Source of the DNA: Actinomycetes bacterium
GTDB taxonomy: Bacteria; Actinomycetota; Coriobacteriia; Anaerosomatales; JAGXFU01
Assembly: GCA_024637115.1 (NCBI GenBank)
Contig: JAGXFU010000008.1
Span: 62,001 to 126,000, forward strand
Length of the DNA: 64,000 nt
Direction of reading: 5' to 3'
Part shown: piece after piece, positions 11,555 to 45,104 of the stretch
Numbering within the stretch: the first letter of the stretch is position 1
Layout: the number at the start of each line of letters is the position of its first letter
Notes under the pieces: model-generated
Told to the model about the DNA's origin: nothing
What the model saw: the letters and a program-made list of their open reading frames with translations, nothing else
Database searches by the model: none
Made by a program: the position numbers and the translations under genes

Positions 11555-12411
11555 TCGCCACCGTGGCCTTTGGCATGGGCATCGACAAGCCCGAGGCGTT
11601 GCTCCTCTTTGGCCTGCAAGACGCCATGACCGCACGCATGCTCATTGAGAGCGGCTCGAACCCCGATCAGGTGCGCATCGAGCTCCACAAACTCCAGACT
11701 ATGATCGCCTTTGCCGAGGCAACAACGTGCCGTCGCCGGGTCCTCCTGGGCTACTTTGGCGAGCGACAGCCCCAGGAGTGCGGGAACTGCGATGTCTGCC
11801 TCGACCCTCCGCAACTCTACGATGCAACGATCGACGCGCAGAAGGCGCTCTCAGCAGTGCACCGCACCGGGCAGCGCTTTGGTATCGGACACGTGGTTGA
11901 TGTGCTGCGCGGACGCTCGACTGACAAGGTCGGCGAGTGGGGACACGAGAGCCTCTCCGTCTTTGGAGTAGGCGAGGAGCTCAGTGTCGACGAGTGGACG
12001 AGCGTGATCCGTCAGCTGATCCACCACGGCCACCTCACCCAAGACATCGCGGCCTACTCGGCGCTCAAGTTCACCGAGTCGACTGGAGATGTACTGCGCG
12101 GCGAGGTCGAGCTGCGCTTCGCGAGGCCGCGTGCGAAGGCGCCCAAGGCCGCGAAAGCGGCGAAGCGCTCGCGTGCGCTCGAGGGACTCGAAGTTGACGA
12201 GCAGCTGTTCGAACGACTGCGCGAATTGCGCACCGTGCTGGCTGCCGAGGCAGGCGTGCCGGCCTACGTGGTGTTCGCGGATCGGACGCTCGCGGACATG
12301 GCCGCGAGGAGGCCGACCACACCCGAGGAGATGCTCGAGGTGCACGGGGTGGGAGCTGCGAAGCTGCGGCGGTATGGGGAGGCGTTTCTGGAGGTCGTGG
12401 GGGCGGGGTAG
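11555..12411 (+). pseudogene. Truncated divergent copy of the recQ 3' half
   Basis: From TCGCCACCGTGG near 11555 to about 12403 the sequence parallels recQ from motif V through the HRDC domain. The helicase core is missing. In addition, 31 in-frame codons, including all of motif VI (the arginine-finger QETGRSGRDG segment), have been deleted between two CCGA tetramers. Over the remaining ~260 aligned residues I count only about seven amino-acid changes, but many silent third-position changes. This pattern means the copy diverged while still under selection as part of a functional recQ in another lineage, rather than by local duplication and decay. An open frame runs from ATG 11563, yet no helicase activity is possible. 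Confidence 0.9.
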
Positions 12412-21773: not shown

Positions 21774-21972
21774 CCATCAGCTCCTTTTCGAACAGAGGCC
21801 CGAACCGCGGCTCCATTGTAGGCATACGCTGCGCGTCGTGTGCCGCGGATACATCGCCTTCCGTCAACGAAGGCGCGGCCACGCCTAGCATTCGAGCCGC
21901 AAGACACGTTCAGGTATGCCGATGGTATGATTTTACTGTTCAGCCAGGGCGATGCAGGCTTTCGGGGGTTCC

Positions 21973-24139: not shown

Positions 24140-25333
24140 GTGTACCGAGACATGGAATCGGATGTGTCTATGCCCAGTACGTCGGTTGCGCTGTTTGCGG
24201 GTATCGGCGGACTGGAGCTCGGATTGTCCGACTGCGGGATAGAGACGCAGCTCTTCTGTGATATTGATCCGGCGGCTCGTACGGTGCTGAGTGATCACTT
24301 TCCTAGCGCGAACATCACCTCAGACGTCCGTGAGCTCCGAGAGTTGCCCGAGACGGATCTGCTCACCGCAGGCTTTCCGTGCCAGGACTTGAGCCAGGTC
24401 GGTCGTCGAGCCGGCATTTCCGGAGGCAAGTCGAGCATCGTCAGCACCGTATTCAAGCTCATTAGGGATGCGAGCAAGAAGCCCGATTGGGTTCTGATCG
24501 AGAATGTCCCGTTCATGCTGCGCCTAGATCAAGGCGCAGCGATGTCGTACTTGGTCACGGAGCTTGAGCGGCTCGGCTACACGTGGGCCTACCGAGTGGT
24601 CGATGCTCGAGCATTCGGAATCCCCCAGCGCCGCAGGCGCGTATTCCTTCTCGCCTCACTAGTTGGAGATCCGAGACTGATTCTGGCCGATCAGGCCGAG
24701 CAGCGACCGGAGCCCGCATGGGATGGCGAGACGACGGGATTCTACTGGACCGAAGGGAATCGCGGTCTTGGGTGGGCCCCCGGTGCTGTACCCACGCTCA
24801 AGGGAGGTTCCGGACTAGGAATTCCATCGCCGCCAGCAGTCTGGGTCCCCGGCAAGACAATCGGGACACCAGACATCAGAGACGCTGAGCGACTTCAGGG
24901 CTTCTCCGAGGACTGGACGCGCTCGGTATCTGGGGGCCGGAGGGGCGAGGGCGCAAGGTGGCGTCTCGTTGGCAATGCCGTATGCGTTCCGGTCGCAAGG
25001 TGGATTGGCGGTTTGCTGATAGGGCCGGAGCCACACGGACTCCCAGAGGGACTTGAGATGTTGTCATCCGCCAAGTGGCCTACTGCAGCGTGGGGGGCGG
25101 GTGGGCGCCGATTCGAAGTCCCCTGTGGCGAGTGGCCGCAATCTGTCGCTACGGCTCCAATAGCTGAGTTCCTGCGCCATCCGTTGAAACCGCTCTCACA
25201 CAAGGCCACGGCGGGGTTCTACTCTAGACTGTCCAAGAGCGGATTGAGCCGCCCTGCAGAGTTCGATGAGGACCTGGTGCTTCACATCGCACGCATGGCG
25301 AGGGAAAGCGCAACCGTCTACTGTCCAAGCTAG
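24140..25333 (+). CDS. DNA (cytosine-5) methyltransferase, DrmMII-like by position
   Basis: A 397-aa C5-cytosine methyltransferase using SAM. Motif I is VALFAGIGGLELGL, motif IV TAGFPCQDLSQVGRRAG with catalytic Cys, motif VI LIENVPF, motif VIII IPQRRRRVFLLAS, and motif X RWRLVGNAVCVPVARWIGG. The target-recognition region is short (ERLQGFSEDW lies before motif X), and ~100 extra residues follow motif X. GTG 24140 has AGGAG seven bases upstream; ATG 24152 or 24170 are alternatives. It lies 128 bp before the DISARM operon on the same strand. Class 2 DISARM uses a C5 methyltransferase (DrmMII) while class 1 uses DrmMI, so having both here is unusual. It may also be an independent modification gene. 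Confidence 0.88.
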   Translation: MYRDMESDVSMPSTSVALFAGIGGLELGLSDCGIETQLFCDIDPAARTVLSDHFPSANITSDVRELRELPETDLLTAGFPCQDLSQVGRRAGISGGKSSIVSTVFKLIRDASKKPDWVLIENVPFMLRLDQGAAMSYLVTELERLGYTWAYRVVDARAFGIPQRRRRVFLLASLVGDPRLILADQAEQRPEPAWDGETTGFYWTEGNRGLGWAPGAVPTLKGGSGLGIPSPPAVWVPGKTIGTPDIRDAERLQGFSEDWTRSVSGGRRGEGARWRLVGNAVCVPVARWIGGLLIGPEPHGLPEGLEMLSSAKWPTAAWGAGGRRFEVPCGEWPQSVATAPIAEFLRHPLKPLSHKATAGFYSRLSKSGLSRPAEFDEDLVLHIARMARESATVYCPS

Positions 25334-25431: not shown

Positions 25432-25461
25432 TTCCTGAATGTGCGCTTGAGGGGGAATGGT

Positions 25462-28400
25462 ATGACCGAGGGGACGACGGTCGTTGAGGGCGGCGGGAGT
25501 CTGCCTGAGCTCGGCCAGTTGGTTGAGGTCAGGCGGCGCCAATTCGTGGTGTCCGATATCGATCGCTCGTCCATGCCCCCCGATCCGCTCACAGGCGAAG
25601 TGCGAGCGCCCCAGCACCTGCTCACGCTTACATCGGTTGAGGATGATGCTCTCGGCGAGGAGCTCCAAGTCGTGTGGGAGATCGAGCCCGGCGCGCGGAC
25701 GATTGAGCGCGGCGGACTGCCTCGGCCCGACGGGTTCGATGATCCTCGAAGGCTGCAAGCGTTCCTGCACGCGGTCCGCTGGGGCGCGGTTACGGACGCC
25801 GATCACCGCAATCTCCAGTCGCCTTTCCGGAGCGGCATCACTCTTGAGGACTATCAACTTGATCCGGTAGTGCGGGCTATCCAGATGCCGCGCGCGAACC
25901 TGCTGGTCGCTGACGATGTGGGACTCGGCAAGACGATCGAAGCTGGGCTCGTGATACAGGAGCTGATGCTCCGGCACCGCGCGCGTACAACGCTCATCGT
26001 CTGCCCCTCATCTCTGACCACCAAATGGCGCGATGAGATGCACGACAAGTTCGGCTTGGAGTTCCGAATCGTTGACACGCAGCTACTCAAGGAGCTCAGG
26101 CGCTCTCGCGGACTGCACGTGAACCCCTGGACTCACTTTCCGCGGCTCATCGTGTCGATTGACTGGCTCAAGCGGGACATCCCAATGCGAATGTTCCGAG
26201 ACGTGCTGCCATCCATGCCAACATACCCCCGGCCGTTCGACATCATGGTCGTCGATGAGGCTCACAACGTGGCACCGTCCGCGTCTGGCAATTACGCGGT
26301 GGACAGCCAGCGGACCAAGGCGATTCGGACCCTGGTGCCGCATTTCGAGCACCGCCTGTTCCTGACGGCGACACCGCATAATGGCTATCCTGAGTCATTC
26401 TCCTCACTGCTTGAGTTGCTCGATGATCAGCGTTTTGCGCGCGGCGTTGATCCGGATCGTGAGCAGCTGGCCAAGGTCATGGTTCGCCGTCTCAAAGACG
26501 AGATAGTCGACTGGCAAGGCAAACCAAAGTTCGCCAAGCGCGTACTCGTCCCGATCGAGGTTGAGTACTCAGATGATGAGCGCAAGGCGCATGCACTGCT
26601 GAGCGAATACTCCTCCCTGCGCTCAAGCGCGGCGAAACGTGCCGGCGGCGGTTTCGCGACCGACTTCGTCCTCAAGTTGCTCAAGAAGCGGCTCTTCTCG
26701 TCGCCTGCCGCGTTCACCACAACTCTCGAGAAACATCGAGCACGTCTTGAGGGCCGTGTTGTGGCCGAGGACCGCAAGTCCGCCTTCGACAAAGGAATTC
26801 TCAAGCGTGCGATCGAGAAGGTGGAAGAGGACTACGCGATAGACGAAGAGTATGAGTTGGCGCTCGATGAGGCTGTCGAGGCCGCCACTTCAGAAGCGGT
26901 CGAGCTTTCCCCACGCGAGATCGAGCTTCTCGATGAGATGAGCTCCTGGGCGCAGAGAGCATCAGGGCGTTCCGACTCGAAAGCAGAAGCGCTGTTCGCT
27001 TGGCTCGATGAGTATCTACGCCCTGGCGGGGTTTGGTCCGACCAGCGCGCCATCATCTTCACGGAGTATCGCGCGACGCAGGTATGGTTCGCGAACCTGC
27101 TCGCCTCGCGGGGTTTCGCAGGCGAGCACCTCATGCAGCTCTATGGCGGTATGGATCCCGAGGACCGCGACCGCGTTAAGGCGGCGTTCCAGGCGAGTCC
27201 CAAGGATGCCGAAGTGCGCATCCTCCTGGCGACGGATGCGGCGTCCGAAGGAATCGACCTACAGAACCACTGCTCATTCATGATTCACATTGAGGTTCCT
27301 TGGAACCCCAACCGACTGGAGCAGCGCAATGGCCGTATTGACCGTCACGGTCAACGAGCCCCAGAGGTGCGCATTCACCATTTCGTTCCAAGTGGCTTCC
27401 AGGAGTCAATTGAGCATGCTGAGTCGAGGGGGGATCTTGATGGTGATCTTGAGTTCCTTTGGGTCGCCGTCAAGAAGATAGAAGCGATCCGTCAGGATCT
27501 TGGACGTGTTGGTCCGGTGATTGCCAGCCAGGTAGAGGATGCGATGCTCGGACGTCGAGTGAACCTCGCTACCGATCAGGCTGAGAAGCAAGCGGCCGCG
27601 GCGCGCAAGGTGCTTGGGATTGAGAGACGCCTTGGTGAACAGATCCAGCGGCTTCACGACCGGGTCGAAGATACGCGCCGGGACCTAGACCTCACCCCGG
27701 AGAACGTGGAGCTCGTTGTCAGTACTGCGCTCGACCTTGCAGGTCAGCCATCGCTTGAGCGGATCGAGCTCTCTGGAGCAGAGACACCGGTGTTCCGCAT
27801 GCCGGCGCTCAAGGGCACGTGGGCTCACTGCCAGGACGGGCTCCTTCACCCACACACCGCCAAACGCCGACCCATCACGTTCGACAACTCCGCAATCGAT
27901 GGTCGCGACGACGTCGTCCTGGCGCACCTCGAGCACCGACTCGTTCAGATGAGCCTACGTCTCCTGCGGGCTGAAGTGTGGGCACCTGACAGCTACAAGC
28001 GCCTGCATCGTGTGACGGCGATGGTCGTCCCGGATTCCGTCCTCGATACTCCGGCTGTGGTCGCCTGGGCAAGGCTCATTGTTGTTGGCGAGAATCGTCA
28101 TCGCCTTCATGAGGAGATCATTCAGGCAGGTGGAGCCATTCGCTCAGGCCGTTTTGCACGATTCGGTAAGGAGCAGCTGGACGCCATTATCGAGCGTGCC
28201 GAGTTGCATCTGCCCAAAGGGGCGATGCTCGACCAGCTGACAGAAGTCTGGTCCAAAGTCGAAGACTCGCTCCTGGCCTCGATTGACGCGCGCAAGGACG
28301 ACCGCATGCAGTACGTCCAAAACGCGCTCGACCGGCGTCGCGACAAAGAGGTCGAGGACATGCGTGGGATCCTCAACGAACTTGAGCGTTCTATTCGCTC

Positions 28401-28629
28401 GCAGCTTGAGGAGCCGGAACATATGCAGCTTGAGCTCTGGAACAGCGCCGAGAAGGAGCAGCTGCAGCGCAACATCGGAGCACTGCAGCAGCGCCTTGAG
28501 CGCATCCCGGCTGAGACTGACAATGAGGCGCGCGTGATCGAGGCGCGCTACTCGTCGCCGTCGGACCGAGTGTTTCCTGTCGCGGTCGCCTTCCTCGTGC
28601 CGCAGTCCATGGCCGGGGGTACGCAATGA
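25462..28629 (+). CDS. drmD: DISARM class 1 SNF2-family helicase DrmD
   Basis: A 1055-aa SNF2/Swi2-type translocase, the signature of class 1 DISARM. Walker A is VADDVGLGKTIEAGLVIQEL (~residue 150), followed by TLIVCPSSLTTKWRDEM, Walker B IMVVDEAHNVAPS and LFLTATPHNGYPESFSSLLE. The second RecA lobe has RAIIFTEYRATQVW and ATDAASEGIDLQNHC, then VPWNPNRLEQRNGRIDRHGQ. A long helical C-terminus with coiled-coil-like stretches follows. ATG 25462 has GAGGGGGAA upstream. The stop overlaps the drmMI start by 4 bp (ATGA). DISARM blocks unmodified phage DNA soon after entry; DrmD's exact step is not established. Confidence 0.92.
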   Translation: MTEGTTVVEGGGSLPELGQLVEVRRRQFVVSDIDRSSMPPDPLTGEVRAPQHLLTLTSVEDDALGEELQVVWEIEPGARTIERGGLPRPDGFDDPRRLQAFLHAVRWGAVTDADHRNLQSPFRSGITLEDYQLDPVVRAIQMPRANLLVADDVGLGKTIEAGLVIQELMLRHRARTTLIVCPSSLTTKWRDEMHDKFGLEFRIVDTQLLKELRRSRGLHVNPWTHFPRLIVSIDWLKRDIPMRMFRDVLPSMPTYPRPFDIMVVDEAHNVAPSASGNYAVDSQRTKAIRTLVPHFEHRLFLTATPHNGYPESFSSLLELLDDQRFARGVDPDREQLAKVMVRRLKDEIVDWQGKPKFAKRVLVPIEVEYSDDERKAHALLSEYSSLRSSAAKRAGGGFATDFVLKLLKKRLFSSPAAFTTTLEKHRARLEGRVVAEDRKSAFDKGILKRAIEKVEEDYAIDEEYELALDEAVEAATSEAVELSPREIELLDEMSSWAQRASGRSDSKAEALFAWLDEYLRPGGVWSDQRAIIFTEYRATQVWFANLLASRGFAGEHLMQLYGGMDPEDRDRVKAAFQASPKDAEVRILLATDAASEGIDLQNHCSFMIHIEVPWNPNRLEQRNGRIDRHGQRAPEVRIHHFVPSGFQESIEHAESRGDLDGDLEFLWVAVKKIEAIRQDLGRVGPVIASQVEDAMLGRRVNLATDQAEKQAAAARKVLGIERRLGEQIQRLHDRVEDTRRDLDLTPENVELVVSTALDLAGQPSLERIELSGAETPVFRMPALKGTWAHCQDGLLHPHTAKRRPITFDNSAIDGRDDVVLAHLEHRLVQMSLRLLRAEVWAPDSYKRLHRVTAMVVPDSVLDTPAVVAWARLIVVGENRHRLHEEIIQAGGAIRSGRFARFGKEQLDAIIERAELHLPKGAMLDQLTEVWSKVEDSLLASIDARKDDRMQYVQNALDRRRDKEVEDMRGILNELERSIRSQLEEPEHMQLELWNSAEKEQLQRNIGALQQRLERIPAETDNEARVIEARYSSPSDRVFPVAVAFLVPQSMAGGTQ

Positions 28630-31600
28630 GTACGCCCATCAATCATGCCGAGTGGCTTTCGCTCATCGATGTATCCGGTCCCTTCCTGTCGATTCCGGTG
28701 CTCGACAAGGTGTTTCCTCAGGGTCTCGACGTCGTGGAGCCATCGACAGCGTCTCGAGTTCGCAGCGCCTACGAAGAATGGCGTGAATCAACGGATGATA
28801 CTCTTCAGCAAGCCTGGACAGAGTTCATCCTGGGTGAGGTTCTGGAGTATGAGTCGCGCGTCTTGAAGACGGATTCAGATATCCCGGCAACTCTACGCCA
28901 CACGGTTGCCGAGCATGGCGTTGAGCTACGTCCGTCGGCCGTGCTCGTTGAGCCGGGCGATGCGACGGCAGCCCGCCTCCTTGTCGCCGAGTGGCCAGCG
29001 ACACAGAAGGATCTTCAGCAGGCGGCGGCGGTAGACTCGTGGGCTGCGAGCCCCGCCGAGCGCATGACGGCGCTTTGCAGGGCGACGGGTGTCCGCCTCG
29101 GCCTCGTCACCAACGGCGAGCAATGGCTGTTGGTGGATGCGCCTCAGGGTGAGACTCCAGCGTATGTGACCTGGTACGCATCGTTCTGGATAGAGGAACG
29201 CATCACGCTCCAGGCATTCCGTTCTCTCTTGGGCGTACAGCGTTTCTTTGCGGTGGCAGCGGATGAGACGCTTGAGCAGATGCTTGCGGACTCGGTTCAG
29301 TATCAGGCCGAGGTCACCGACCAGCTGGGTGCCCAGGTTCGCCGAGCAGTAGAGGTGCTCATCCAGGCGCTGGACAAGGCCGACGCCGACGCCGGTCGGA
29401 AGCTCCTTGGCGATATTCCGGAATCAGTTCTGTACGAAGCGTCGATCACCGTGATGATGCGCCTCGTGTTCCTGTTCTGTGCCGAAGAGCGCGACTTGTT
29501 GCTGCTTGGCGACCCCGTTTACGACCAGTACTATGCGGTCTCGACGCTTCGCTCCATCCTGCGCGAAGAGGCTGATCAACACGGGATCGAGGTACTCGAA
29601 CGCCGTCAAGACGCATGGAGCCGACTGCTCGCGACTTTCCGGGGAATCTACGGCGGCATTGATCACGAGTCACTTCGCCTGCCGGCATACGGCGGTAGCT
29701 TGTTCGACCCCGATCGTTTTCCATTTCTTGAGGGGCGCGCGCCGGGGACGTCATGGAAGGGTACTCTGGCCAGTCCACTTCCAGTGGACAACCGGACCGT
29801 CCTCCACCTTCTAGAGGCTCTGCAGCTCCTGCAGATGAAGGGGAGAGGCGGTGTCGTTGCCGCGAGGAAGCTCTCGTTCCGCGCCCTCGACATCGAGCAG
29901 ATAGGCCACGTGTACGAGAGCCTGCTCGATCACACGGCGGTGCGTGCCGACGTTCCAACGCTGGGGCTAGTAGGCAAGCTTGGCGAGGAGCCCGAAGTCT
30001 CTCTTCTTGCTGTCGAGGAACAGTGGATGGCGAGTGAGGAGAGTCTACTCGACTTCCTGCATGATGAAACGGGCAAGTCAAAGTCTGCTCTGCAGAAGCT
30101 CCTTCTGCGCGAAGTAGAGTCAGAGTGGGGCGACCAGCTCAAGCGCGAGTGTGGAGACTCCGAGCTCTACAAGCGAGTCGAGCCTTTCCATGCGTTGGTG
30201 CGGGAGGACCCGTGGGGAGATCCTGTCGTCATGCGCCCGGGAGACATCTATGTCACGGCGGGAACAGACCGCCGTAGCTCCGGCACGCACTACACGCCCA
30301 AAGCACTGACCGAGGAAATCGTCCGATACACACTGGAACCGTTGGCCTACATAGGGCCAGCCGAGGGCAAATCGCGAGAAGACTGGAAGCTCAAGCCGTC
30401 GGCCGACCTTCTGGGTCTGAAGATCTGCGACCCCGCCATGGGTTCGGGTGCATTCCTCGTCCAGGTCGTGCGTTGGCTCTCGGAGCGTATCGTCGAGGCC
30501 TGGGATGTCGAGCAGGCCGTGGAGTCTCAGGTCGAGAGTCGCGAGGAGCGGGTCATGCACGCCCGGCGTTTGGTCGCTGAGCGGTGTGTGTACGGGGTCG
30601 ACGTGAATCCTCTCGCGGTGGAGATGGGAAAGCTCTCGCTCTGGCTCGTGACCCTATCGAAAGGCCGCCCGTTTGGGTTCCTCGATCATGCGCTGAGATG
30701 TGGCGACAGCCTTCTGGGAGTTCACGATCTTGACCAGATTCGCTACTTCCACCCGGATCCTGCAGAGGGCAAGAAGCGCAAGCTGACCTTCTTTGACCCC
30801 GGACCGCTGATCGAAGACGCGATTGATAGGTCTGAGAAGCTCCGCACCGAGCTTGAGTCCTTTGAGGTGCTTGATGTACGTGATGCACAGCAGAAGCAGG
30901 CCTTGCTGACCCAAGCGTCTGAAGCGACTGTTGCAGTCCGCGTGGTGGCGGATCTCGTTACATGCGCTGCGATATCAACAGCGGGTGAGTCGGCATCCGC
31001 ACGGGACACTCGTTTGCGGGCCTTTGAGCAGGAGTTGGCCTCGCGAGTCCAAGAATGGGAGGCAGTAGGCGAGGAGAGTAGACGCCTATTGAATGCGGGC
31101 ATTCCGGCTGGGCGAGATCCCCGGCAGCCGTTCCATTGGCCACTTGAGTTTCCGGAGGTGTTTGCTGGCGGAGGCTTCGATGCGCTATGCATGAACCCGC
31201 CGTTCGTGGGAGGGCAGAGGATTAGCGGCGTGTTCGGCGACGACTATCGATCCTACCTGCAGGAGCATGTTGCGGGGGGTGTCAGAGGGAGCGCGGACTT
31301 ATCGGCGCTGTTCTTCCGGCGTGTGGCTGCAGTTGCCAGCCCACGAGCGAGCGTAGGTTCGCTTGCGACGAACACGATCTCACAGGGCGCAACACGCGAG
31401 GTGGGTCTCGCTGCTCTCCGATTGCTGGGTTGGCATGTGGCGCGCGCGGTCTCGAGCCGTCCCTGGCCGGGCCAGGCGAATCTGGAGATCGCCGAAGTGT
31501 GGCTTCGTCGTGAAGCGGTCAAGAATCCTGTGCTGGACGAGCGATCCGTCCGATCCATCGGCCCCGACCTTCGGGAGCCGGGACGTGTGGAGGGTGAGCC

Positions 31601-32597
31601 ACACGTTCTAGTGGCCAATCAAGGCACCTGCTTCCAGGGTTCGATTCTGCAGGGCATTGGGTTTGTGCTCAGCGATGATGAGGCGCATCGTGTCCTTCAA
31701 CTGGATTCACGATACGCGGAGGTAGTCAAACCGTACATTACCGCGGAAGACCTGTACTCGCGACCGGACGCCGGTGCGAGTAGATGGACGATTGATTTCG
31801 GTGACATGCTGATCGAGCAGGCCTCTGCGTTTGTGGAACCCATGAGAATCGTTACTGAGCGAGTCAAGCCCCAACGAGAGACAATCAAGCGCCAGCGCAA
31901 CCGCGAGCGTTGGTGGCAGTTTGCTGAGACCAGACCCGGTCTTTATGGCTCAGTGCGCTGCTTGGGACGGGTGTTGGTGATCGGGGCTGTCAGCAAAGTG
32001 GTTCTACCGGCCTGGGCTCAGAATGGTCAGGTCTTTTCACATCGAGTGTTTGTCTTCGCCTCAGAAGATGACTCCCTCTTTGGACTCCTCACAAGCTCAA
32101 TTCATTGGGTCTGGGCCGTGACGCGTTCCTCCACTTTGGAGACGAGAACTAACTACTCTCCGTCAGACTGTTTTGTGAACTTCCCTCAGCCGCTGGACCT
32201 TTCCCGCATTGAGCCTCTCGGCAAGGCGCTTCACGAACATCGGAGTGCCATGATGCTTGAGCGTCAGCTCGGCATTACAGCGACATACAATCTCGTAATC
32301 GATGAGTCATGCAGTGATCAGGATGTCGAAGGGTTGCGCTGCCTTCACCGCGAACTTGATGAGGTAGTGGCACGCGCTTACGGCTGGGATGACCTGGTGC
32401 TGGATCACGGCTTCTACGACACGAAGTGGGGGCCTCGGTACACGGTCGGCCCAGTGGTGCGACAGGAGATCCTCGACAGGTTACTCGAACTGAACCATGA
32501 ACGCTACGCCGAGGAGGTCGCCCAAGGCCTTCACGACAAAGGTGCCAAGAAGAAGAGAAAGCGCAATGCGGTCTCTGACACGCAATCACTGTTCTAG
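28626..32597 (+). CDS. drmMI: DISARM adenine-specific DNA methyltransferase DrmMI
   Basis: A 1323-aa N6-adenine methyltransferase of the large fused type. Motif I is KICDPAMGSGAFLVQVVRWL (~residue 600) and motif IV CMNPPFVGGQRISGV (~residue 855), with YGVDVNPLAVEMGKLSLWL between them. The N-terminal ~500 residues (RLVFLFCAEERDLLLLGDPV, IGHVYESLLDHTAVRADVP) match class IIG-like restriction-modification polypeptides, but no nuclease site is evident. The C-terminal part includes the target-recognition region. Methylation marks host DNA as self for DISARM. It is translationally coupled to drmD, and the next gene starts 8 bp after the stop. Confidence 0.92.
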   Translation: MSTPINHAEWLSLIDVSGPFLSIPVLDKVFPQGLDVVEPSTASRVRSAYEEWRESTDDTLQQAWTEFILGEVLEYESRVLKTDSDIPATLRHTVAEHGVELRPSAVLVEPGDATAARLLVAEWPATQKDLQQAAAVDSWAASPAERMTALCRATGVRLGLVTNGEQWLLVDAPQGETPAYVTWYASFWIEERITLQAFRSLLGVQRFFAVAADETLEQMLADSVQYQAEVTDQLGAQVRRAVEVLIQALDKADADAGRKLLGDIPESVLYEASITVMMRLVFLFCAEERDLLLLGDPVYDQYYAVSTLRSILREEADQHGIEVLERRQDAWSRLLATFRGIYGGIDHESLRLPAYGGSLFDPDRFPFLEGRAPGTSWKGTLASPLPVDNRTVLHLLEALQLLQMKGRGGVVAARKLSFRALDIEQIGHVYESLLDHTAVRADVPTLGLVGKLGEEPEVSLLAVEEQWMASEESLLDFLHDETGKSKSALQKLLLREVESEWGDQLKRECGDSELYKRVEPFHALVREDPWGDPVVMRPGDIYVTAGTDRRSSGTHYTPKALTEEIVRYTLEPLAYIGPAEGKSREDWKLKPSADLLGLKICDPAMGSGAFLVQVVRWLSERIVEAWDVEQAVESQVESREERVMHARRLVAERCVYGVDVNPLAVEMGKLSLWLVTLSKGRPFGFLDHALRCGDSLLGVHDLDQIRYFHPDPAEGKKRKLTFFDPGPLIEDAIDRSEKLRTELESFEVLDVRDAQQKQALLTQASEATVAVRVVADLVTCAAISTAGESASARDTRLRAFEQELASRVQEWEAVGEESRRLLNAGIPAGRDPRQPFHWPLEFPEVFAGGGFDALCMNPPFVGGQRISGVFGDDYRSYLQEHVAGGVRGSADLSALFFRRVAAVASPRASVGSLATNTISQGATREVGLAALRLLGWHVARAVSSRPWPGQANLEIAEVWLRREAVKNPVLDERSVRSIGPDLREPGRVEGEPHVLVANQGTCFQGSILQGIGFVLSDDEAHRVLQLDSRYAEVVKPYITAEDLYSRPDAGASRWTIDFGDMLIEQASAFVEPMRIVTERVKPQRETIKRQRNRERWWQFAETRPGLYGSVRCLGRVLVIGAVSKVVLPAWAQNGQVFSHRVFVFASEDDSLFGLLTSSIHWVWAVTRSSTLETRTNYSPSDCFVNFPQPLDLSRIEPLGKALHEHRSAMMLERQLGITATYNLVIDESCSDQDVEGLRCLHRELDEVVARAYGWDDLVLDHGFYDTKWGPRYTVGPVVRQEILDRLLELNHERYAEEVAQGLHDKGAKKKRKRNAVSDTQSLF

Positions 32598-32605
32598 GGG
32601 GATGC

Positions 32606-35600
32606 ATGGCTGATCAAGCACGACTGACAGAACTCCGCGAGCAGCTCTTTGATGCTGTTGGCCGCGATCTCCTCGGCCCTGTGGATGGACCTGATGAGGA
32701 GGTTCCAACGCGACCGGATATTCGGGCGCGTTATCTGGTCGGTCAGCTCGTGCCGATGGGGAGCGAGCTGGACCCTTCGGAGTTCGATGAACTCGGACGG
32801 GTGGGTGACAAGGTGCGAGAGGATGGCGACACGGATTCCGACACCCCTCAGTCGCAGTCGCTCATGTCTTCGTCGATCGGGATGACCTTTTCGGTCGAAG
32901 CCGGCGCGAAGACGATCGAGGTTCTCACGCGATGGGGTCACTATGACCGCATCAAGAGCCAGGATGTCGAGAACATGACCGAGTCCGGCGAGGGCAAGTC
33001 GGTCTGGAAGCGCACGCACGTCGAGCCAACACCGATTCATCTTGACCTTGTCGATGGCCAGTTGGAGCCCATCCGCTTGTGGTCCATGGAAGACGAAGGC
33101 GGCGAGCCGCACTCAGAGACGAGGGCGATCTTCCTTGAGGGCCGGATTCGCAAGGGTGATGGAAACTGGATCGTCACGCTGTTCCTGGTGAATCGCGACC
33201 GGAGCCCGGACCCAGATGAGCGTCCCGAAAAGGACCCTCGACGCTGGATCTTCCAGGCCGAGATCGAAGTACGCGCGTCAGACGGGGCCGCGAATTTCAT
33301 CAGGCATGGGGTGAGACGCCCGGAGGATCCGGAGCGCGAGATCCTTCAGATGCTCTATCGCAATGAGGTTGAGTTCGCTGTGGGGCATGGTGTTGCGACT
33401 CACGCGACACTTGCGGAGGGCCGTCGCGATCGGGCGATCTCGCTCTCCACGCGATGGATACCGTGGTACGACGTGGCCCAGACTGAGACGCCGTCTGTGG
33501 AGGACTGGCCCGGGCTCGCCGAGCTTGAGCTCGACATGCAGTCGCTAGCCGAGTTGCCGGACGTTGAGTTGTTCGCGACACTGCGAGTCCTGACTCGCGA
33601 GTACGAAGCGTGGATCGAAAAACAGCAGGCACGAGTGGACGCAGGTGAGCTCGCAGTGCACGAGGGAGCCGCCAAGTCCGTCCTTGGCAAATGTACCTAC
33701 ACGCTTGGGCGCCTGTCGGACGGCATCGAGGTGCTCGAATCCGAGGCCGACGCTCTAGAGGCATTTCGCTTCGCAAATCTGGCGATGGCGACGCAGCGAA
33801 GACGTTCCATCTTTGCGTTGAAGCGCAGGCGTGGTGAGGAAGTCGTGCTAGATGAGATCGAGCGGCCCAAGTGGCGTGCGTTCCAGTTGGCGTTCCTGCT
33901 GCTCAATGTGCCGGCACTAGTCGACCCGTCAGTTCGAGATCGCGTCGATCCGCGCGATGCCGTAGCGGATCTCATCTGGTTCCCGACAGGTGGCGGCAAG
34001 ACCGAGGCGTATCTTGGCGTGGCGGCTTTCGCGATGGGAATGCGACGGCTTCAGGGTGTGGTGGAGGGCTACGACGGACGCTATGGCGTCGCAGTCATCA
34101 TGCGCTACACGTTGAGGCTACTCACTGTCCAGCAGTTTCAGCGCGCGACAACTCTCATATGCGCGATGGAGATCATTCGGCGGGAAGACCCAGAGACGTG
34201 GGGCGATGAACCCTTCCGCATCGGGTTGTGGGTGGGTGGCAAGTCTACTCCCAACTCCACAGAAGACTCAGAGAAGGCGATCAAGGAGGAGAAGGGTCAG
34301 GGATACAGCCGCGGCGGTGGGTCACCCTACCAGCTGACCAATTGTCCGTGGTGCGGAGCGCCAATTTCCCCGAAATACGGTGACTACAGAGTCAGCCGTG
34401 AGCTGCAGCGCACGCTGATAACCTGTTCGGACAAGCTTGGTGAATGCGAGTTCACGGCCAAGAGATCTGACGGTGAGGGCATCCCGGCAGTTGTAGTCGA
34501 TGAGGAGTTGTATCGGCTGTTGCCGTCGCTCGTCATCGGAACGGTCGACAAGTTCGCGCAGATGTCCTGGAACGGCGTGGTGCAAACGCTCTTTGGACGA
34601 GTTCACGGACGTTGTGCTCGGCATGGCTTCATTCACCCGGAAGCCAAGATCGAGTGCAGTGGCAACCACAACGTCTCGCGGAATGGGCTGGCTGCCACCA
34701 AGAAGGAACCGATTGAGGAGCTTCGACCACCGGACCTGATCATTCAAGACGAGCTGCACCTGATCAGCGGTCCGCTAGGGACCATGGTCGGGCTCTATGA
34801 GGCAGCTGTCGACAAGTTGTGCGAGTGGCAATTCCGCGGCAAGACAGTGCGGCCTAAGGTAATCGCCTCCACGGCGACGATTCGTCGAGCAAAGGAGCAG
34901 GTCCACGGCCTGTTCGTGCGCCGAGTGGAGGTCTTCCCGCCACGAGGCCTTGATATCGAGGACAATTTCTTCTCGGTGATGCGTGAGGTGACGCCCGAGA
35001 AACCGGGTCGGCGGTACATGGGGATCTGTGCACTCGGTAAGAGCCGGCCTGCGACATTGATTCGCGTATACACGGCATTCCTCACGGCGGCTCAGAAGAT
35101 CTACAACGACAACGGCCGGGACGCTGACACGTGGATGACTCTCCTCGGCTATTTCAACTCGTTGCGTGAACTCGGCGGCATGCGTCGACTGGTCGACGAC
35201 GATGTGAAGACTCGTGCTTACCGGATCGCAATGGATGAGGACCTCGCACGCGAAGAACTCGCCCAGCGGGATGTGCGGACGGTCGACGAGCTCACTTCTC
35301 GCAGGGTGGCCAAAGACATCCCCAAGGTGCTCGACGGCTTGGAGCTTGAGTTCGATCCTGTGAAGGCCGCTGAGCGCGAGAAGGCCAAGAAGGAGAAGCG
35401 CCCGCTTGGCCCGTCTCCCTACGATGTGATGCTGGCCACGAACATGGTCTCGGTTGGCGTCGACGTTGGCCGGCTCGGCCTCATGGTCGTGGCGGGACAG
35501 CCCAAGAACACGGCGGAGTACATCCAGGCGACGAGCCGTGTTGGTCGTCAGACGCCTGGCTTGATCTGCACGGTTCTCAACTGGGCTCGCCCTCGAGACC

Positions 35601-36139
35601 TGTCGCACTATGAGCGATTCGAGCACTATCACGCGACCTTCTACCAGCAAGTGGAGGCGCTCTCAGTCACACCCTTTGCTCCTCGCGCGATTGACAAGGG
35701 GCTGACCGGCGTCGCCGTAGCGATGCTGCGCATGAATGAGCGCACACTGAACCCGAACAAGGGGGCCGGTGACTTCTCCCTTGCGGAGAACTATTCAGCC
35801 GATCTAGTGCAGGAAGTAGCTGATCGTTCCTGGGAGGTCTCCGAGAAGCCTAGCGTGCGAGATTACGTCGCATCCCAGTTGAAGGTGCGTCTCGACGAGT
35901 GGGCACGTGAGACCCAGAAGCCCGGAAGAACCCTGGGATACAAGAAGCCTCGATCGGCGAAGGACGGCGCGTTGGCGCCGCTTCTGAAGCAGCCGGGCAA
36001 GGAAGAGTGGACGAGGCTCACTGTAATGAACTCACTGCGCGAAGTTGAACCTACGGTCGGGCTTGTCTTGAATGAGGCGGGATCCGACTGGAGCGGACCC
36101 GACTGGGAGATGTCGATGGCCGGTGAGAACGATGAGTAA
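32606..36139 (+). CDS. drmA: DISARM helicase DrmA
   Basis: A 1177-aa SF2-like helicase, core component of DISARM. Walker A is LIWFPTGGGKTEAYLGVAAF (~residue 460), Walker B LIIQDELHLISGPLG (~residue 712), and the second lobe has ATNMVSVGVDVGRLGLMVVA and AEYIQATSRVGRQ. A four-cysteine insertion (NCPWCGAPISPKYG with a later CSDKLGECEF) probably binds zinc. The N-terminal ~400 residues are the DrmA-specific region. In studied systems DrmA works with DrmB on DNA carrying a 5' end or on unmethylated DNA. It overlaps drmB by 8 bp. Confidence 0.94.
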   Translation: MADQARLTELREQLFDAVGRDLLGPVDGPDEEVPTRPDIRARYLVGQLVPMGSELDPSEFDELGRVGDKVREDGDTDSDTPQSQSLMSSSIGMTFSVEAGAKTIEVLTRWGHYDRIKSQDVENMTESGEGKSVWKRTHVEPTPIHLDLVDGQLEPIRLWSMEDEGGEPHSETRAIFLEGRIRKGDGNWIVTLFLVNRDRSPDPDERPEKDPRRWIFQAEIEVRASDGAANFIRHGVRRPEDPEREILQMLYRNEVEFAVGHGVATHATLAEGRRDRAISLSTRWIPWYDVAQTETPSVEDWPGLAELELDMQSLAELPDVELFATLRVLTREYEAWIEKQQARVDAGELAVHEGAAKSVLGKCTYTLGRLSDGIEVLESEADALEAFRFANLAMATQRRRSIFALKRRRGEEVVLDEIERPKWRAFQLAFLLLNVPALVDPSVRDRVDPRDAVADLIWFPTGGGKTEAYLGVAAFAMGMRRLQGVVEGYDGRYGVAVIMRYTLRLLTVQQFQRATTLICAMEIIRREDPETWGDEPFRIGLWVGGKSTPNSTEDSEKAIKEEKGQGYSRGGGSPYQLTNCPWCGAPISPKYGDYRVSRELQRTLITCSDKLGECEFTAKRSDGEGIPAVVVDEELYRLLPSLVIGTVDKFAQMSWNGVVQTLFGRVHGRCARHGFIHPEAKIECSGNHNVSRNGLAATKKEPIEELRPPDLIIQDELHLISGPLGTMVGLYEAAVDKLCEWQFRGKTVRPKVIASTATIRRAKEQVHGLFVRRVEVFPPRGLDIEDNFFSVMREVTPEKPGRRYMGICALGKSRPATLIRVYTAFLTAAQKIYNDNGRDADTWMTLLGYFNSLRELGGMRRLVDDDVKTRAYRIAMDEDLAREELAQRDVRTVDELTSRRVAKDIPKVLDGLELEFDPVKAAEREKAKKEKRPLGPSPYDVMLATNMVSVGVDVGRLGLMVVAGQPKNTAEYIQATSRVGRQTPGLICTVLNWARPRDLSHYERFEHYHATFYQQVEALSVTPFAPRAIDKGLTGVAVAMLRMNERTLNPNKGAGDFSLAENYSADLVQEVADRSWEVSEKPSVRDYVASQLKVRLDEWARETQKPGRTLGYKKPRSAKDGALAPLLKQPGKEEWTRLTVMNSLREVEPTVGLVLNEAGSDWSGPDWEMSMAGENDE

Positions 36140-37979
36140 CATCAAGGAGACTCGCGTTGGCGAGATGCGTCCGAGCCAACTGCTGTGGGCCTACGGTCCC
36201 GGAGCGGTGGTGGATCTGCCGAACTTCTCGGTGGTTGTGAAGGGGCTCGATTTCTGGGATCCCAGCAGGTGCACCCCACTAAAGGAGCCTCGGCTGCTGC
36301 AGGCGGTTAAGGGTCGCCTTGGCTGGCAGGTGGAGAGGCTCCTCGCGCCGCCCACCATCGAAGACGATGGCGGGCCGACTATGGGTGAGGACGCCGGTAT
36401 CGGAGTTCCCGTCGGGACGTTCCCGCAGTGGCTCCGATGTCCATTCTGTGGTCTACTCGCGCCGGTTGACACCGGACTGTTTAGTTTCAAGACCAACCCC
36501 TATCGACTCGACAGAATTCAGTGGGTCCATGAGGGCTGCCCGAAGGCTAAACGGCCTGTCGCGATCGCCTCTCGTTTTGTTGTCGCTTGCGACCAAGGCC
36601 ACCTCGATGACTTTCCATGGCGCTACTACGTGCATCGTGGGCACAGCGACTGCAAAGAGCCCTTGAAGTTCTACGAGGTCGGGGCGTCACTTGAGAATGC
36701 GAATCTGTTCGTTGAGTGCGGGTGTGGCGAGAAGCGTTCGATGGTGGAAGCATTTGGACCCAGCGCGGTGGAGGCACTCCCTGACTGTAGGGGTCGTCAT
36801 CCGCACCTAGGTACTTTCAGCAGGTGCGAAGCACCGATCCGAACTCTGCTACTCGGCGCATCCAACGGGTGGTTTCCTGAGACCATTTCGGTTCTGGCGG
36901 TGCCGACCGAAGGCACTCGGCTAGAGCAGCTTGTCGAAGAGAACTGGGATGATCTCAAGGCAATTCCCACGCTTGAGACGCTGACCTGGTATCGCAGCAC
37001 GTCAGGGATGGTTGCATTCGTCGACTTCTCCAACGAAGCGATTTGGGCAGCGGTTGAGGGCAAGCGCAATGAGCCTGCTGAGCCCGATGTGCAGGATGAC
37101 TACGATCTCAAACGCCCCGAATGGCTTGCGTTTATGAAGGGCGAGAATCATGGCGAGCACCTGAAGGACTTCCGACTCTCACTAGGCGTAGTCCCAGAGC
37201 GATACACGGATGTCATCGACCGCGTTGTGAGGGTCGAGCGCCTGCGCGAGGTCAATGCACTCACCGGGTTCACGCGCATAAGTCCTCCTGAGGAAATGAC
37301 CGATGAGTCGGGGAAACAGTTCAGGGCACCAATCTCTTCGGAGAAGCCGACGTTTGCTCCAGCATCGGAAGTCCGGGGCGAAGGCCTGTTCATCGCCTTC
37401 AAGCCGGAGGTCTTGGAGAAGTGGTCCCAGGAGCCAGCGGTGCGCCTGCGTGAAGAAAGACTGCTCTCAGCACATCGCGAGTGGAGATCTTCCCGCCATC
37501 TTGAGCCGCTTGATCAGGGCTTCCCCGGGGCAGTCTACTCCGCGTTGCACAGCTTCTCGCATGCCTTAATGCGTGAGATTGCCCTTGAGTGTGGTTACAA
37601 CTCGGCGAGCGTCCGGGAACGAGTGTACGCATCTCGTTTCGGCGAGCAAGTGACGATGGCGGGGGTGCTGGTCTACACGGCGGCTCCAGACAGCGAGGGG
37701 ACCCTCGGCGGCCTGGTAGCGCTCGGTGAACCTGCGGAGCTTGAACGGCTCATCACCCAAGCACTTCGCTCGGCCGCCCTCTGCTCGTCCGATCCACTTT
37801 GCAGCGAACACGATCCGGTTCGTGACAAGAGTCTGCACGGGGCCTCATGCCATGCGTGCCTGTTTGCGCCGGAGACGTCATGCGAGCGTGGCAACCGCTA
37901 TTTGGACCGCGCGCTTCTGGTGCCGACTTGGGCGGCGAACAATACGGCTCTGTTCGCCCCGTCAGAAGATCAGACATGA
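36132..37979 (+). CDS. drmB: DISARM DUF1998 protein DrmB
   Basis: A 615-aa protein beginning MSNIKETRVGEMRPSQLLWA with YGPGAVVDLPNFSVVVKGLD, the conserved DrmB opening. Cysteine pairs CPFCGLL, the single Cys of HEGCPKA, and VECGCGEKRS suggest a metal site. The C-terminal region GFPGAVYSALHSFSHALMRE with SCHACLFAPETSCERGNRYL is the DUF1998 domain, with its histidine and four cysteines. DrmB partners DrmA to form the core complex. The ATG at 36132 overlaps the drmA stop; the longer in-frame form from 36072 is not needed. The stop overlaps drmC by 4 bp. Confidence 0.94.
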   Translation: MSNIKETRVGEMRPSQLLWAYGPGAVVDLPNFSVVVKGLDFWDPSRCTPLKEPRLLQAVKGRLGWQVERLLAPPTIEDDGGPTMGEDAGIGVPVGTFPQWLRCPFCGLLAPVDTGLFSFKTNPYRLDRIQWVHEGCPKAKRPVAIASRFVVACDQGHLDDFPWRYYVHRGHSDCKEPLKFYEVGASLENANLFVECGCGEKRSMVEAFGPSAVEALPDCRGRHPHLGTFSRCEAPIRTLLLGASNGWFPETISVLAVPTEGTRLEQLVEENWDDLKAIPTLETLTWYRSTSGMVAFVDFSNEAIWAAVEGKRNEPAEPDVQDDYDLKRPEWLAFMKGENHGEHLKDFRLSLGVVPERYTDVIDRVVRVERLREVNALTGFTRISPPEEMTDESGKQFRAPISSEKPTFAPASEVRGEGLFIAFKPEVLEKWSQEPAVRLREERLLSAHREWRSSRHLEPLDQGFPGAVYSALHSFSHALMREIALECGYNSASVRERVYASRFGEQVTMAGVLVYTAAPDSEGTLGGLVALGEPAELERLITQALRSAALCSSDPLCSEHDPVRDKSLHGASCHACLFAPETSCERGNRYLDRALLVPTWAANNTALFAPSEDQT

Positions 37980-38788
37980 TTTCCGAGCTGCTCATTGGTC
38001 ACCTGACCCTGATGGCGCGCACATTGCCGCCCGGGGCCGTGAGGCAAATCACCGGTGCGATAAGACGCGGTGGGCTTGACGACGGTTCTGTGGTTGAGGC
38101 TGCGGCCACACCTGAAACGCGCGGTTTGCTACAGCAGATGCTGTGCGACTGGAAGGCCTGCGACGAGTGTTCGCCAACCGAGGTCGCCAGCGCACTTGAG
38201 GTGGCGAACCTTGCCGTTGTTTGCGAGCGTGCTGAGCACTGTCTTGAGGTTGTTTGGACCGGTCCCAGGTCAGATGTGGTTCCTGTTCGCCGTATCGATC
38301 AGGTTCTCTACCAGATTATCGAGGCATCGCGGAACAGATTGCTCATTGTGAGCTACGCAGTCTACGGGGTTCCGCTTGTTCTCAAGGCGGTGAACGATGC
38401 CGCAGCAAGGGGGGTGCGAGTTGATCTCGTGCTGGAGTTCGAGGGCCACGGGGGGGATCAAGACTGGGATCCACTGCGAGCGCTAGGAGCACTTGATGCG
38501 CGTGTTCGCGTGTTCGAGTGGCCGCTTGAACAGCGCCCAGCCCTTGCGGGAGGACGACGCGGAATGATACATGCGAAGTGCGCGGTCGCGGACTCTCGAT
38601 CAGCGATTGTCTCAAGCGCGAACCTTACTGAATACGCGCTCGATGCCAATATGGAGCTCGGTATGCTTGTCGAGGGCGTTGCGGTAGCAGCGGACATCGA
38701 CAATCACTTTCGGGGGCTGATGGATTCGGGCGTGTTGCAGCTCCGCCCGAATTCTCGGCATGCGAATGAGATGGGCGAAGCGGAGTGA
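37976..38788 (+). CDS. drmC: DISARM phospholipase-D-type protein DrmC
   Basis: A 270-aa protein with one PLD catalytic motif, MIHAKCAVADSRSAIVSSAN (H-x-K-x4-D followed by S-A-N), near residue 200. A degenerate first half (IIEASRNRLLIVSYAVYGVP) precedes it. One-HKD PLD proteins normally act as dimers, often as nucleases. The N-terminal helical region (LTLMARTLPPGAVRQITGAI) is typical of DrmC. In tested systems DrmC is dispensable for some phages. It ends in a GTGA overlap with the next gene, which ties an extra helicase to the operon. Confidence 0.92.
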   Translation: MISELLIGHLTLMARTLPPGAVRQITGAIRRGGLDDGSVVEAAATPETRGLLQQMLCDWKACDECSPTEVASALEVANLAVVCERAEHCLEVVWTGPRSDVVPVRRIDQVLYQIIEASRNRLLIVSYAVYGVPLVLKAVNDAAARGVRVDLVLEFEGHGGDQDWDPLRALGALDARVRVFEWPLEQRPALAGGRRGMIHAKCAVADSRSAIVSSANLTEYALDANMELGMLVEGVAVAADIDNHFRGLMDSGVLQLRPNSRHANEMGEAE

Positions 38789-41433
38789 ACGACGAAGGGT
38801 TGCTTGCGCATCTGAGAACTTCTGGTGCGCGTTTGATCGAGTCGCTCGCCGCATCGACGGGGCTCACGGTCGTTGACCTTGAGGCGCGCCTTGAAGACCT
38901 GAAAGCGGCTGACGAGGTGCGAAAGAGCCCTGCCGGACGCTGGTTTGTGCCAGGGCACGCCCGAGGCACAGTCGTTGAGGTGAAACCAGGTTTCGATGAT
39001 CAACTTGAGTCCATCAGGCGCTTCGCCGAATACATGCGCCTGTGCGCCCTAGAGGAGGAGGGAAGCCCTGCGCTTCTGCGCTCCCTGGAAATGGGAGAGA
39101 GTTGGATTGGCTGGCCGTCATCGCGTGAGTGGTCCCGTGATGGAGGCGACATTGTACGCGTAGACAGCAGTACAGCCAGACGCTTCGTGGAGAGTGCTGC
39201 GAGTCCCAACGCTCGACTGCTATACGGCTACCCGCTCTATGTGGTTCACCGCATGTCCGAGCAGGGTGCAACCTGGCACGCGATTCCGCTCTTGGTCCAG
39301 GCTGTGGATGTTGTGGAGACGAGCTCATCAGGCGTTCGGATCGCGCTCGCTGATGACTACCCACGAGTCAACCCGCAGTTCCTAACCGAAGTATTTGACT
39401 GGCCCGAAGAACGACGCGATTTTGTCGAGGCTCTGGGCCTGCTTGGGTCCGATGTGGAGGCTGGTGTCTCGGTCCACGAGTGTGCGGATCGACTTCTTGA
39501 GCTTGGGTTGCCCTACCCGATGGAGTACGTCGACGAGCTGGCTCCCGAGTTGGCCTCGATCCGAGAGCACCCGGTTCCGGTCGAGGGCGTTCACAATGCT
39601 GCCGTTTTGGCCACTGCTGGGGAGCTGAAGTATCGCAAGAGTCTTGTCGATGAACTCGACAAGATCGCCAATACCGGCAAGACCGCTGACCTGGGTCGCA
39701 CAGCGCTGGCCACTCTCGTTGGGCAGGGGCTGCCTGCAGAGTCCATTGGGAACATCGATGTCACCGATGATTTGCCGTTGGACGAATGGCAGCTCGGTGT
39801 TGTGGAGGCTGCGATGACGCGGCCGCTCACGGTAGTAACCGGACCGCCGGGGACAGGGAAGTCTCAGGTTGTTGCGGCGATTCTCGCGCACTCGGCTCTG
39901 CAGGGGAAGTCGGTGTTGTTCGCTAGCTACAACCACAAAGCTGTGAGCGTGGTCGAAGACAAGCTCAACGGGCTCTTTGGTGATCGACTGCTCCTGCGGT
40001 GTGGTGCATCGCGGGGGGAGCGCGAGCACCGTTTGGAGATCGCCGACACGCTGGAGTCGATGATCGCCGGTGTGCTCCCTGACAAAGACGCTCCAAGTGG
40101 CACGCTTGCCAGAGCCTTGATTGACGCTCGAAGTGACCTGATGCGCAATGCCACAAATCGGGATCGTTCCCAACTCGAAGAGCTGGCTAGCGCTGCCCGA
40201 GCGATTGCTGAAGATGGCTCGGGATACGCGGACTGGTTCCGGGCGTTTGCTGGGGCAAAACAGATGGTCGGGCTGTGGTGTGTGACTAACCTATCAGCAA
40301 AGTGGAGTTTCCCGCTTGATCCTGGCCTCTTTGACCTGCTGGTTGTCGATGAGGCGAGTCAGTGTGATGTTGCCTCGGCGCTTCCTCTGTTCTATCGGGC
40401 GCGTCGCGCGGTCATTATTGGCGATCCGCGACAGCTTAGACACATCACATCGGTACCGGGTAGCCGTTCGGTCCAGCTGGCCAGCTCTGCTGGTGCGAGA
40501 GCGGAGTGTGGTCCGTGCGACTACTCCAAGCATTCACTGTATGACTACACTGCTGGCGTGGTCGGTCCGGAGCGGGTGCTCAACCTTGATGCTCACTATC
40601 GGTCCCATCCTGAGATTATTGGCTTTCCGAATCAGCAATGGTACGAGGGCGCGATACAGGTCATGACCGACGTGTCTGCCCTTGTGGACACCGGCGTCGT
40701 AGGACATGGGATGTATTGGTGGCCGGTGCGGAGCACTGTGACGCCTGGATCGACGGGCGTGACCGTCGATGACGAAGCGAGGATCATCGTTGATCGGCTG
40801 GCTGTTCTGCTGCTCGAGGAGGCGTTTGAGGGGACTGTTGGAGTGGTCACTCCATTCAAAGCGCAGCGAGACTTGATCGAAGGGATGCTGTTTGATGCTG
40901 TCCCTGCTGAGGTGCTTGAGGCTCGGTCTGTTGTGGTGAGAACGGCTCATGGGTTTCAGGGTGACGAGCGAGACATCATGTTCTTTTCGCCGTGCCTTAG
41001 GCCCGACATCACAAGAGGCTCCTTTCGCTTCCTCAGAGATACCGAGCATCTTGTCAACGTAGCTATGACCCGGGCTCGAGCAGCGCTGATTATCGTGGGG
41101 GATCTCGACGCCTGCCGCGGTTGCCGCATCCCGCATTTCGAGGAGCTGGCACGGTACTGGGATGAGCTACGAGCGAGCAAGGCCGCGACTGACAGCCATA
41201 TGCAGGGAGAGGCAGAACTGTTCGAGCGCCTCGTCCAGCTCAGACGCGGCATCGCGAAGGAGCAGGGCGTTCCAGGCTATGTTGTCTTTCCTGATGAGAC
41301 ACTCAGATTCCTCGCAGCGACTCGGCCCAAGACACTGGATGAGATGCGCATGATTAAGGGCGTCGGACCGGTGAAGCTGCAGAAGTACGGGGAGCTCTTC
41401 TTGGAGGAGCTTGCTCGTTTCGAGAATGGCTAG
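38785..41433 (+). CDS. SF1 DNA2/NAM7-like helicase with C-terminal HRDC domain, coupled to drmC
   Basis: An 882-aa protein. Residues 1-320 are a unique N-terminal region with a winged-helix-like start (LLAHLRTSGARLIESLAAST). The helicase has Walker A TVVTGPPGTGKSQVVAAILA (~residue 352), ASYNHKAVSVVEDKL, Walker B LLVVDEASQCDVASALPLFY, IIGDPRQLRHI, LNLDAHYRSHPEII, and VVRTAHGFQGDERDIMFFSP with VNVAMTRARAAL. Residues ~812-880 form an HRDC domain (FERLVQLRRGIAKEQGVPGY, then MIKGVGPVKLQKYGE) closely resembling the one in this genome's RecQ. Its GTG start overlaps the drmC stop by 4 bp, so it is translated as the sixth gene of the DISARM operon. It is not one of the standard DISARM components I know; it could process or unwind phage DNA held by DrmAB, or substitute for a host helicase. 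Confidence 0.88.
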   Translation: MNDEGLLAHLRTSGARLIESLAASTGLTVVDLEARLEDLKAADEVRKSPAGRWFVPGHARGTVVEVKPGFDDQLESIRRFAEYMRLCALEEEGSPALLRSLEMGESWIGWPSSREWSRDGGDIVRVDSSTARRFVESAASPNARLLYGYPLYVVHRMSEQGATWHAIPLLVQAVDVVETSSSGVRIALADDYPRVNPQFLTEVFDWPEERRDFVEALGLLGSDVEAGVSVHECADRLLELGLPYPMEYVDELAPELASIREHPVPVEGVHNAAVLATAGELKYRKSLVDELDKIANTGKTADLGRTALATLVGQGLPAESIGNIDVTDDLPLDEWQLGVVEAAMTRPLTVVTGPPGTGKSQVVAAILAHSALQGKSVLFASYNHKAVSVVEDKLNGLFGDRLLLRCGASRGEREHRLEIADTLESMIAGVLPDKDAPSGTLARALIDARSDLMRNATNRDRSQLEELASAARAIAEDGSGYADWFRAFAGAKQMVGLWCVTNLSAKWSFPLDPGLFDLLVVDEASQCDVASALPLFYRARRAVIIGDPRQLRHITSVPGSRSVQLASSAGARAECGPCDYSKHSLYDYTAGVVGPERVLNLDAHYRSHPEIIGFPNQQWYEGAIQVMTDVSALVDTGVVGHGMYWWPVRSTVTPGSTGVTVDDEARIIVDRLAVLLLEEAFEGTVGVVTPFKAQRDLIEGMLFDAVPAEVLEARSVVVRTAHGFQGDERDIMFFSPCLRPDITRGSFRFLRDTEHLVNVAMTRARAALIIVGDLDACRGCRIPHFEELARYWDELRASKAATDSHMQGEAELFERLVQLRRGIAKEQGVPGYVVFPDETLRFLAATRPKTLDEMRMIKGVGPVKLQKYGELFLEELARFENG

Positions 41434-45074: not shown

Positions 45075-45104
45075 GACGCTCCTTCCTTGGGGCAAGAGGA
45101 TATC

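Follow-up and report, generated by a model that had tools for sequence, protein, structure and literature searches.

An SF1 helicase with an HRDC domain as a lineage-restricted accessory of a class 1 DISARM operon

Class 1 DISARM is composed of DrmD, DrmMI, DrmA, DrmB, and DrmC, and accessory genes of DISARM as such are already known. DrmC was reported to be dispensable and did not co-purify with DrmAB, and the same work left open how nucleases are recruited in DISARM (PMC9142583). Systems related to DISARM have nucleases fused to defence helicases or encoded downstream of them (PMC12458937). Another association of this kind is Mokosh (MkoA/MkoB; MkoC), where a helicase and a PLD nuclease go together; MkoC is reported to comprise both (PMC10013915). 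Here, we analyze a class 1 DISARM operon of a member of the Coriobacteriia that continues past drmC into a gene encoding an SF1 helicase with a C-terminal HRDC domain. Our literature coverage was limited, and within it we found no published description of an SF1-HRDC helicase at DISARM. The window, i.e., the whole stretch of DNA that was analyzed, comprises 64,000 nucleotides of contig JAGXFU010000008.1.

All five class 1 DISARM genes are present in the window, in order, according to PADLOC and NCBIfam profiles, in agreement with the first-pass annotation, which had recognized a class 1 DISARM operon here. To this class 1 set, the operon adds the SF1-HRDC helicase at the 3' side and a C5-cytosine methyltransferase at the 5' side:

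21952..24087, same strand as DISARM: ParE/RelE-like-UvrD helicase, 5' of the C5-cytosine methyltransferase
24140..25333, plus strand: C5-cytosine DNA methyltransferase, adjoining drmD on its 5' side (profile match)
25441..28629, plus strand: DrmD, SNF2-like helicase (NF038317, 1370 bits, cut-off 610)
28626..32597, plus strand: DrmMI, MmeI-like adenine methyltransferase (PDLC02643, 1716 bits over 4-1317)
32606..36139, plus strand: DrmA helicase (PADLOC, 1123 bits)
36132..37979, plus strand: DrmB (DUF1998/MZB), separate from DrmA (NF038324, 689 bits)
37976..38788, plus strand: DrmC, PLD-family nuclease of 270 aa (NF038319, 207 bits, cut-off 133)
38785..38788, plus strand: GTGA stop/start overlap of drmC and the helicase (sequence)
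38785..41433, plus strand: SF1-HRDC helicase of 882 aa, final gene of the operon (ORF, Pfam, SF1 motifs)

Neighboring genes overlap or nearly abut from drmD through to the helicase. There is a 4-nt overlap between drmD and drmMI, an 8-nt gap between drmMI and drmA, an overlap of ~8 nt between drmA and drmB (we inferred the DrmB start at 36132 because it overlaps the stop of drmA), and an ATGA overlap between drmB and drmC. The start of drmC is the ATG at 37976, which gives the latter overlap, and not 37847, where the longest ORF starts. The HKD motif of DrmC is intact (HAKCAVAD). The operon indeed runs past drmC, as had been claimed: an ORF of 882 codons with a GTG start and a TAG stop occupies 38785-41433, and its GTG at 38785 overlaps the drmC TGA at 38786-38788. 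The helicase had also been called “translationally fused” to the operon. It is instead a separate gene, co-operonic and coupled by the stop/start overlap. A pattern search revealed no sigma-70 promoter or intrinsic terminator within drmC-helicase, a result that is weak either way. The GC3 is 64.6% in the helicase and 62.7% in drmC, within the 60-72% seen over ~9.5 to 45 kb of the window; beyond this island it is 76-82% in most sampled genes and 71.5% in one. Since the GC3 of the helicase matches that of drmC and the island, not that of the flanking host genes, the gene belongs to the same compositional island as DISARM. The shared strand, the 4-nt overlap, the island GC3, and the retention of the drmB-drmC-helicase order in an orthologous locus whose helicase has diverged by 50% (see below) support that the helicase gene is part of this DISARM operon.

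The surroundings of DISARM loci hold other genes of interest. The protein encoded at 21952-24087, here beside class 1 DISARM, joins a ParE/RelE-like domain at its N terminus to a UvrD/GajB-like helicase; in ARMADA type II, a RelE-GajB-like fusion is described as nearly always occupying the final gene position (PMC12458937). Genes for C5-cytosine methyltransferases and/or Vsr endonucleases recur beside class 1 DISARM (L053, L070, L071, L074, and the window), either 5' of drmD or 3' of drmC. After the helicase come two convergent genes of low GC3 (788 and 330 aa, 41791-45095, minus strand), for which profile searches gave no convincing family match.

The helicase itself has the following parts:

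38785..38955, plus strand: N-terminal winged-helix domain, residues 1-57 (predicted)
38965..39774, plus strand: N-terminal alpha/beta domain specific to the family, residues 61-330 (identity with the orthologue, 45%)
39775..40440, plus strand: RecA1, with Walker A GPPGTGKS (39841-39864) and Walker B DEASQ (40348-40362)
40567..41103, plus strand: RecA2 (AAA_12), with motifs IV-VI (Pfam, motifs)
41212..41409, plus strand: HRDC, residues 810-875 (Pfam), at the position of REase_MTES_1575 in relatives

Judged from its sequence, the protein is a UPF1/DNA2-like SF1 helicase of COG1112 type. Pfam identifies AAA_11 at residues 332-552, AAA_12 at 595-773 (7.8e-26), and HRDC at 810-875 (7.6e-21), bearing out the earlier description of a DNA2/NAM7-like helicase ending in HRDC. 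Walker A and B had been described as intact, and they are, together with all other SF1 motifs: GPPGTGKS (353), DEASQ (522), and GDPRQL (546) for motifs I-III, and TPFKAQ (689), TAHGFQGDE (720), and NVAMTRAR (758) for motifs IV-VI. The closest solved structures by sequence search are UPF1, SMUBP2, SEN1, and DNA2, and a fold search gives the same four with a query that is a low-confidence model. The full set of motifs, the AAA_11/AAA_12 pair, and these nearest structures correspond to a UPF1-like SF1B helicase. The four reference proteins differ from it by their eukaryotic origin and their other accessory domains, and the substrate of the bacterial protein could be RNA or DNA. Residues 1-57 are modelled by AlphaFold as HHH-strand with pLDDT about 80-89. 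For the N terminus of the orthologue (P0002), TrmB/IclR/MarR-type wHTH models give matches of 3e-4 to 1e-3, short of the curated cut-offs. The AlphaFold model as a whole, built on six sequences, has a pLDDT of 61 and a pTM of 0.49 and is too weak for domain-level claims on HRDC.

In RecQ, HRDC binds displaced single-stranded DNA (PMC6773442). The domain had been said to closely resemble that of the RecQ encoded in the same window. The resemblance is real, with 58-59% identity, and of 30 actinobacterial RecQs sampled, the resident one gives the top HRDC match. Its lead is slight, however (score 181 versus 176 for the next one; the other 29 average 134). With so narrow a margin, a recent capture of HRDC from the resident recQ is unsupported. 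RecQ and DpdF have homologous HRDC domains on SF2 motors, whereas the motor here is SF1. We rejected the classification of the protein as a RecQ: it lacks the SF2 DEAD/DEAH motor and RQC, and HRDC is all they have in common. This bears on the idea of a self-protection or repair factor that clears damage made by DrmAB or DrmC from the host chromosome with a RecQ-like activity. HRDC domains are a usual feature of RecQ repair helicases, but the UPF1-like motor and the occurrence of the family in defence contexts make such a role highly improbable. The 3' half of the intact recQ (7544-9355) recurs in truncated form ~3.06 kb downstream (11563-12411); this second copy is 93% identical over a 300-nt core and has an internal deletion of 31 aa. 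It lies at the left boundary of the low-GC3 island and is possibly an integration scar.

A single close homologue was found when 100 relatives and 400 genomes of the class were searched. It is encoded in a Coriobacteriaceae metagenome-assembled genome (G040, PWVH01000159.1), which belongs to the same order of Coriobacteriia but to a different family. The orthologue is full-length, 50% identical, has both the wHTH and HRDC, and lies directly 3' of drmC. The gap between the two genes is 12 or 30 nt depending on the start chosen, such that the adjacency is kept and the overlap is absent. The contig begins inside drmB, and we did not find drmA or drmD elsewhere in the assembly. Identity with the window is 84% for DrmB, 67% for DrmC, and 50% for the helicase, which may thus be only loosely integrated in the operon, diverging much faster than DrmB. 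Within the helicase, the motif blocks are 73-77% identical and the wHTH, 1B, and HRDC regions 32-47%, as expected for an active enzyme under purifying selection. Restriction to one lineage and fast evolution would suit a passenger gene without a role in defence. We find this the least credible of the explanations considered here, as both copies, at 50% divergence, retain every catalytic motif and directly follow drmC. The HRDC-bearing form is not found mostly away from drmC but directly follows it in both known cases (2/2), a small sample in which the second locus is truncated in drmB.

The first-pass annotation had proposed the helicase as a new, sixth layer added to the five proteins of class 1 DISARM. 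This does not hold as a general statement, since a close relative is absent from 18 other class 1 loci: 10 actinobacterial ones with DrmD, DrmMI, DrmA, and DrmB, along with their host genomes, and 8 on plasmids, along with these plasmids. For several loci (e.g., L054, L063, and L067), the retrieved sequence stops before drmC, at it, or shortly past it, and the evidence of absence is the genome- or plasmid-wide negative result. We therefore discarded the notion of a core component, which would be present in most class 1 loci. Across 397 genomes of the phylum, 14 have DrmD above the cut-off and 5 have a relative of the helicase at 1e-60; the two occur together only in the window's own genome. 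No close relatives were found in plasmids or phages, and the searches of phages, plasmids, and IMG/VR returned none with HRDC. One of the scans of genome contigs relied on two exact short peptide patterns and has low sensitivity. With its sole orthologue in G040 and no close relative in the 18 other loci, the helicase is a lineage-restricted DISARM accessory, not a sixth core component. Four further loci of Coriobacteriia with DrmD-like and DrmM-like genes (L118, L119, L120, and L065, from G006, G016, G009, and G023, respectively) were considered as class 1 DISARMs and left uncounted, as the fetched stretches have no DrmA, DrmB, or DrmC; they are possibly related to ARMADA or BREX.

More distant relatives of the helicase, with 27-33% overall identity and ~40% in RecA2, share a common stretch around residues 77-816, which includes part of the N-terminal alpha/beta domain. 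Several of them have a winged helix visible by sequence at the N terminus. Where the window protein has HRDC, these COG1112-type SF1 helicases carry a C-terminal REase_MTES_1575, a PD-(D/E)XK nuclease. Among the sequences checked for this tail, that of L050 is cut before that point and that of L049 within it, with a weak match at the end. The Leptolinea relative (L076) is an exception with another tail; a PLD-like domain, suspected by eye, had no Pfam confirmation and was not used. The window protein differs from these relatives in having no nuclease, HRDC in its place, and a shorter insertion between motifs Ia and II; we thus did not class it as a REase_MTES_1575 helicase-nuclease. The best PADLOC matches of the helicase are the Mokosh proteins MkoC (5e-45) and MkoA (3e-42), of the same branch of the helicase superfamily. 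These matches concern the core only (residues 328-798 at most), and the window protein has no fused PLD domain, so that an assignment to Mokosh was rejected; its HRDC and its link to DISARM are further differences. By analogy, MkoC is a precedent for such a motor working with a PLD nuclease.

The genomic contexts of the relatives point to defence. One lies 3' of PglZ and BrxL (L050) and another 3' of BrxC, PglZ, and BrxHI (L052); L050 also has a HamB-like helicase upstream, and L052 a convergent DruE. The rhizobial relatives belong to a conserved cluster of five genes that includes a DUF2357 gene. This cluster, found in rhizobial plasmids and one viral contig (L078 10129-20425, L079, and L012), encodes the SF1 helicase-REase, a coiled-coil-like protein, an ATPase, the DUF2357 protein, and a fifth protein without assignment; only the ATPase has a notable PADLOC candidate match (PDC-M26A). 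As a whole, the family resembles an effector combining helicase and nuclease that joins modification-based defence operons. In the family tree, the two HRDC-bearing proteins group together as a separate clade (100% support). Deep supports are 41-78%, too low for a rooting of the tree to show a nuclease loss.

Because HRDC occupies the position of the nuclease of the relatives and the gene is coupled to drmC, we favor an explanation in which the two activities are split between adjacent genes. The helicase would act as an accessory effector in a class 1 DISARM confined to one lineage, with the cutting supplied by DrmC, a proposal whose chances we put at somewhat below even. More tentatively, the operon could be a DISARM subtype with a split DrmC/SF1-HRDC effector, derived from an add-on helicase-nuclease like those next to BREX genes, which would have joined DISARM and exchanged its nuclease for HRDC. 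The gene and its domains, the operon, the orthologue, HRDC in place of a nuclease, and the linkage of relatives to BREX are observed; the partnership with DrmC, the polarity, the substrate, and the order of action are what we infer. Unmodified phage DNA would be opened by DrmAB, and the helicase would load onto the exposed strand and translocate, in the 5'-to-3' direction expected for SF1B. HRDC would hold the displaced single-stranded DNA during translocation, and DrmC, the translationally coupled PLD nuclease, would degrade the DNA. Several observations count against parts of this scheme. Most class 1 DISARMs have DrmC but not this helicase, which indicates that DrmC is generally independent of the helicase and weakens the case for a partnership. 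The split rests on one orthologue besides the window, on a contig that starts inside drmB, and the deep supports of the tree leave a nuclease-bearing ancestry, and with it the exchange, uncertain.

Two other functions have to be weighed against this division of labor. The helicase could be an autonomous backup immune gene that acts alone or with host nucleases and shares only the promoter of the operon. Its relatives are single genes or lie in unrelated defence contexts (BREX, the rhizobial DUF2357 cluster, viral contigs), other class 1 DISARMs do without it, and auxiliary nuclease effectors have been documented in BREX loci (PMC12839542). Yet the form found at DISARM carries no nuclease itself, overlaps drmC by 4 nt, and directly follows drmC in both known copies. 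We rank this explanation next after the joint action with DrmC and regard it as possible, if rather doubtful. The helicase could also prepare the substrate, in line with the first-pass annotation, by remodelling phage DNA, HRDC-bound branched intermediates included, for DrmAB, or by standing in for a helicase that the phage inhibits. The motor and the HRDC domain are both intact, and unmodified DNA with a 5' overhang activates DrmAB (PMC9142583). Such a role seems unlikely: the relatives are helicase-nucleases, not loading factors, DrmAB lacks the helicase in every other DISARM locus examined, and nothing links the helicase to DrmA or DrmB over DrmC.

The final destruction of phage DNA by DISARM is an open question, and the drmC-helicase operon offers a hypothesis for the partner of DrmC. 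If it is true, DrmC gains a partner that can be tested. More broadly, the presence of related helicases 3' of BREX genes and of drmC points to a shared reservoir from which both systems would take add-on helicase-nuclease effectors.
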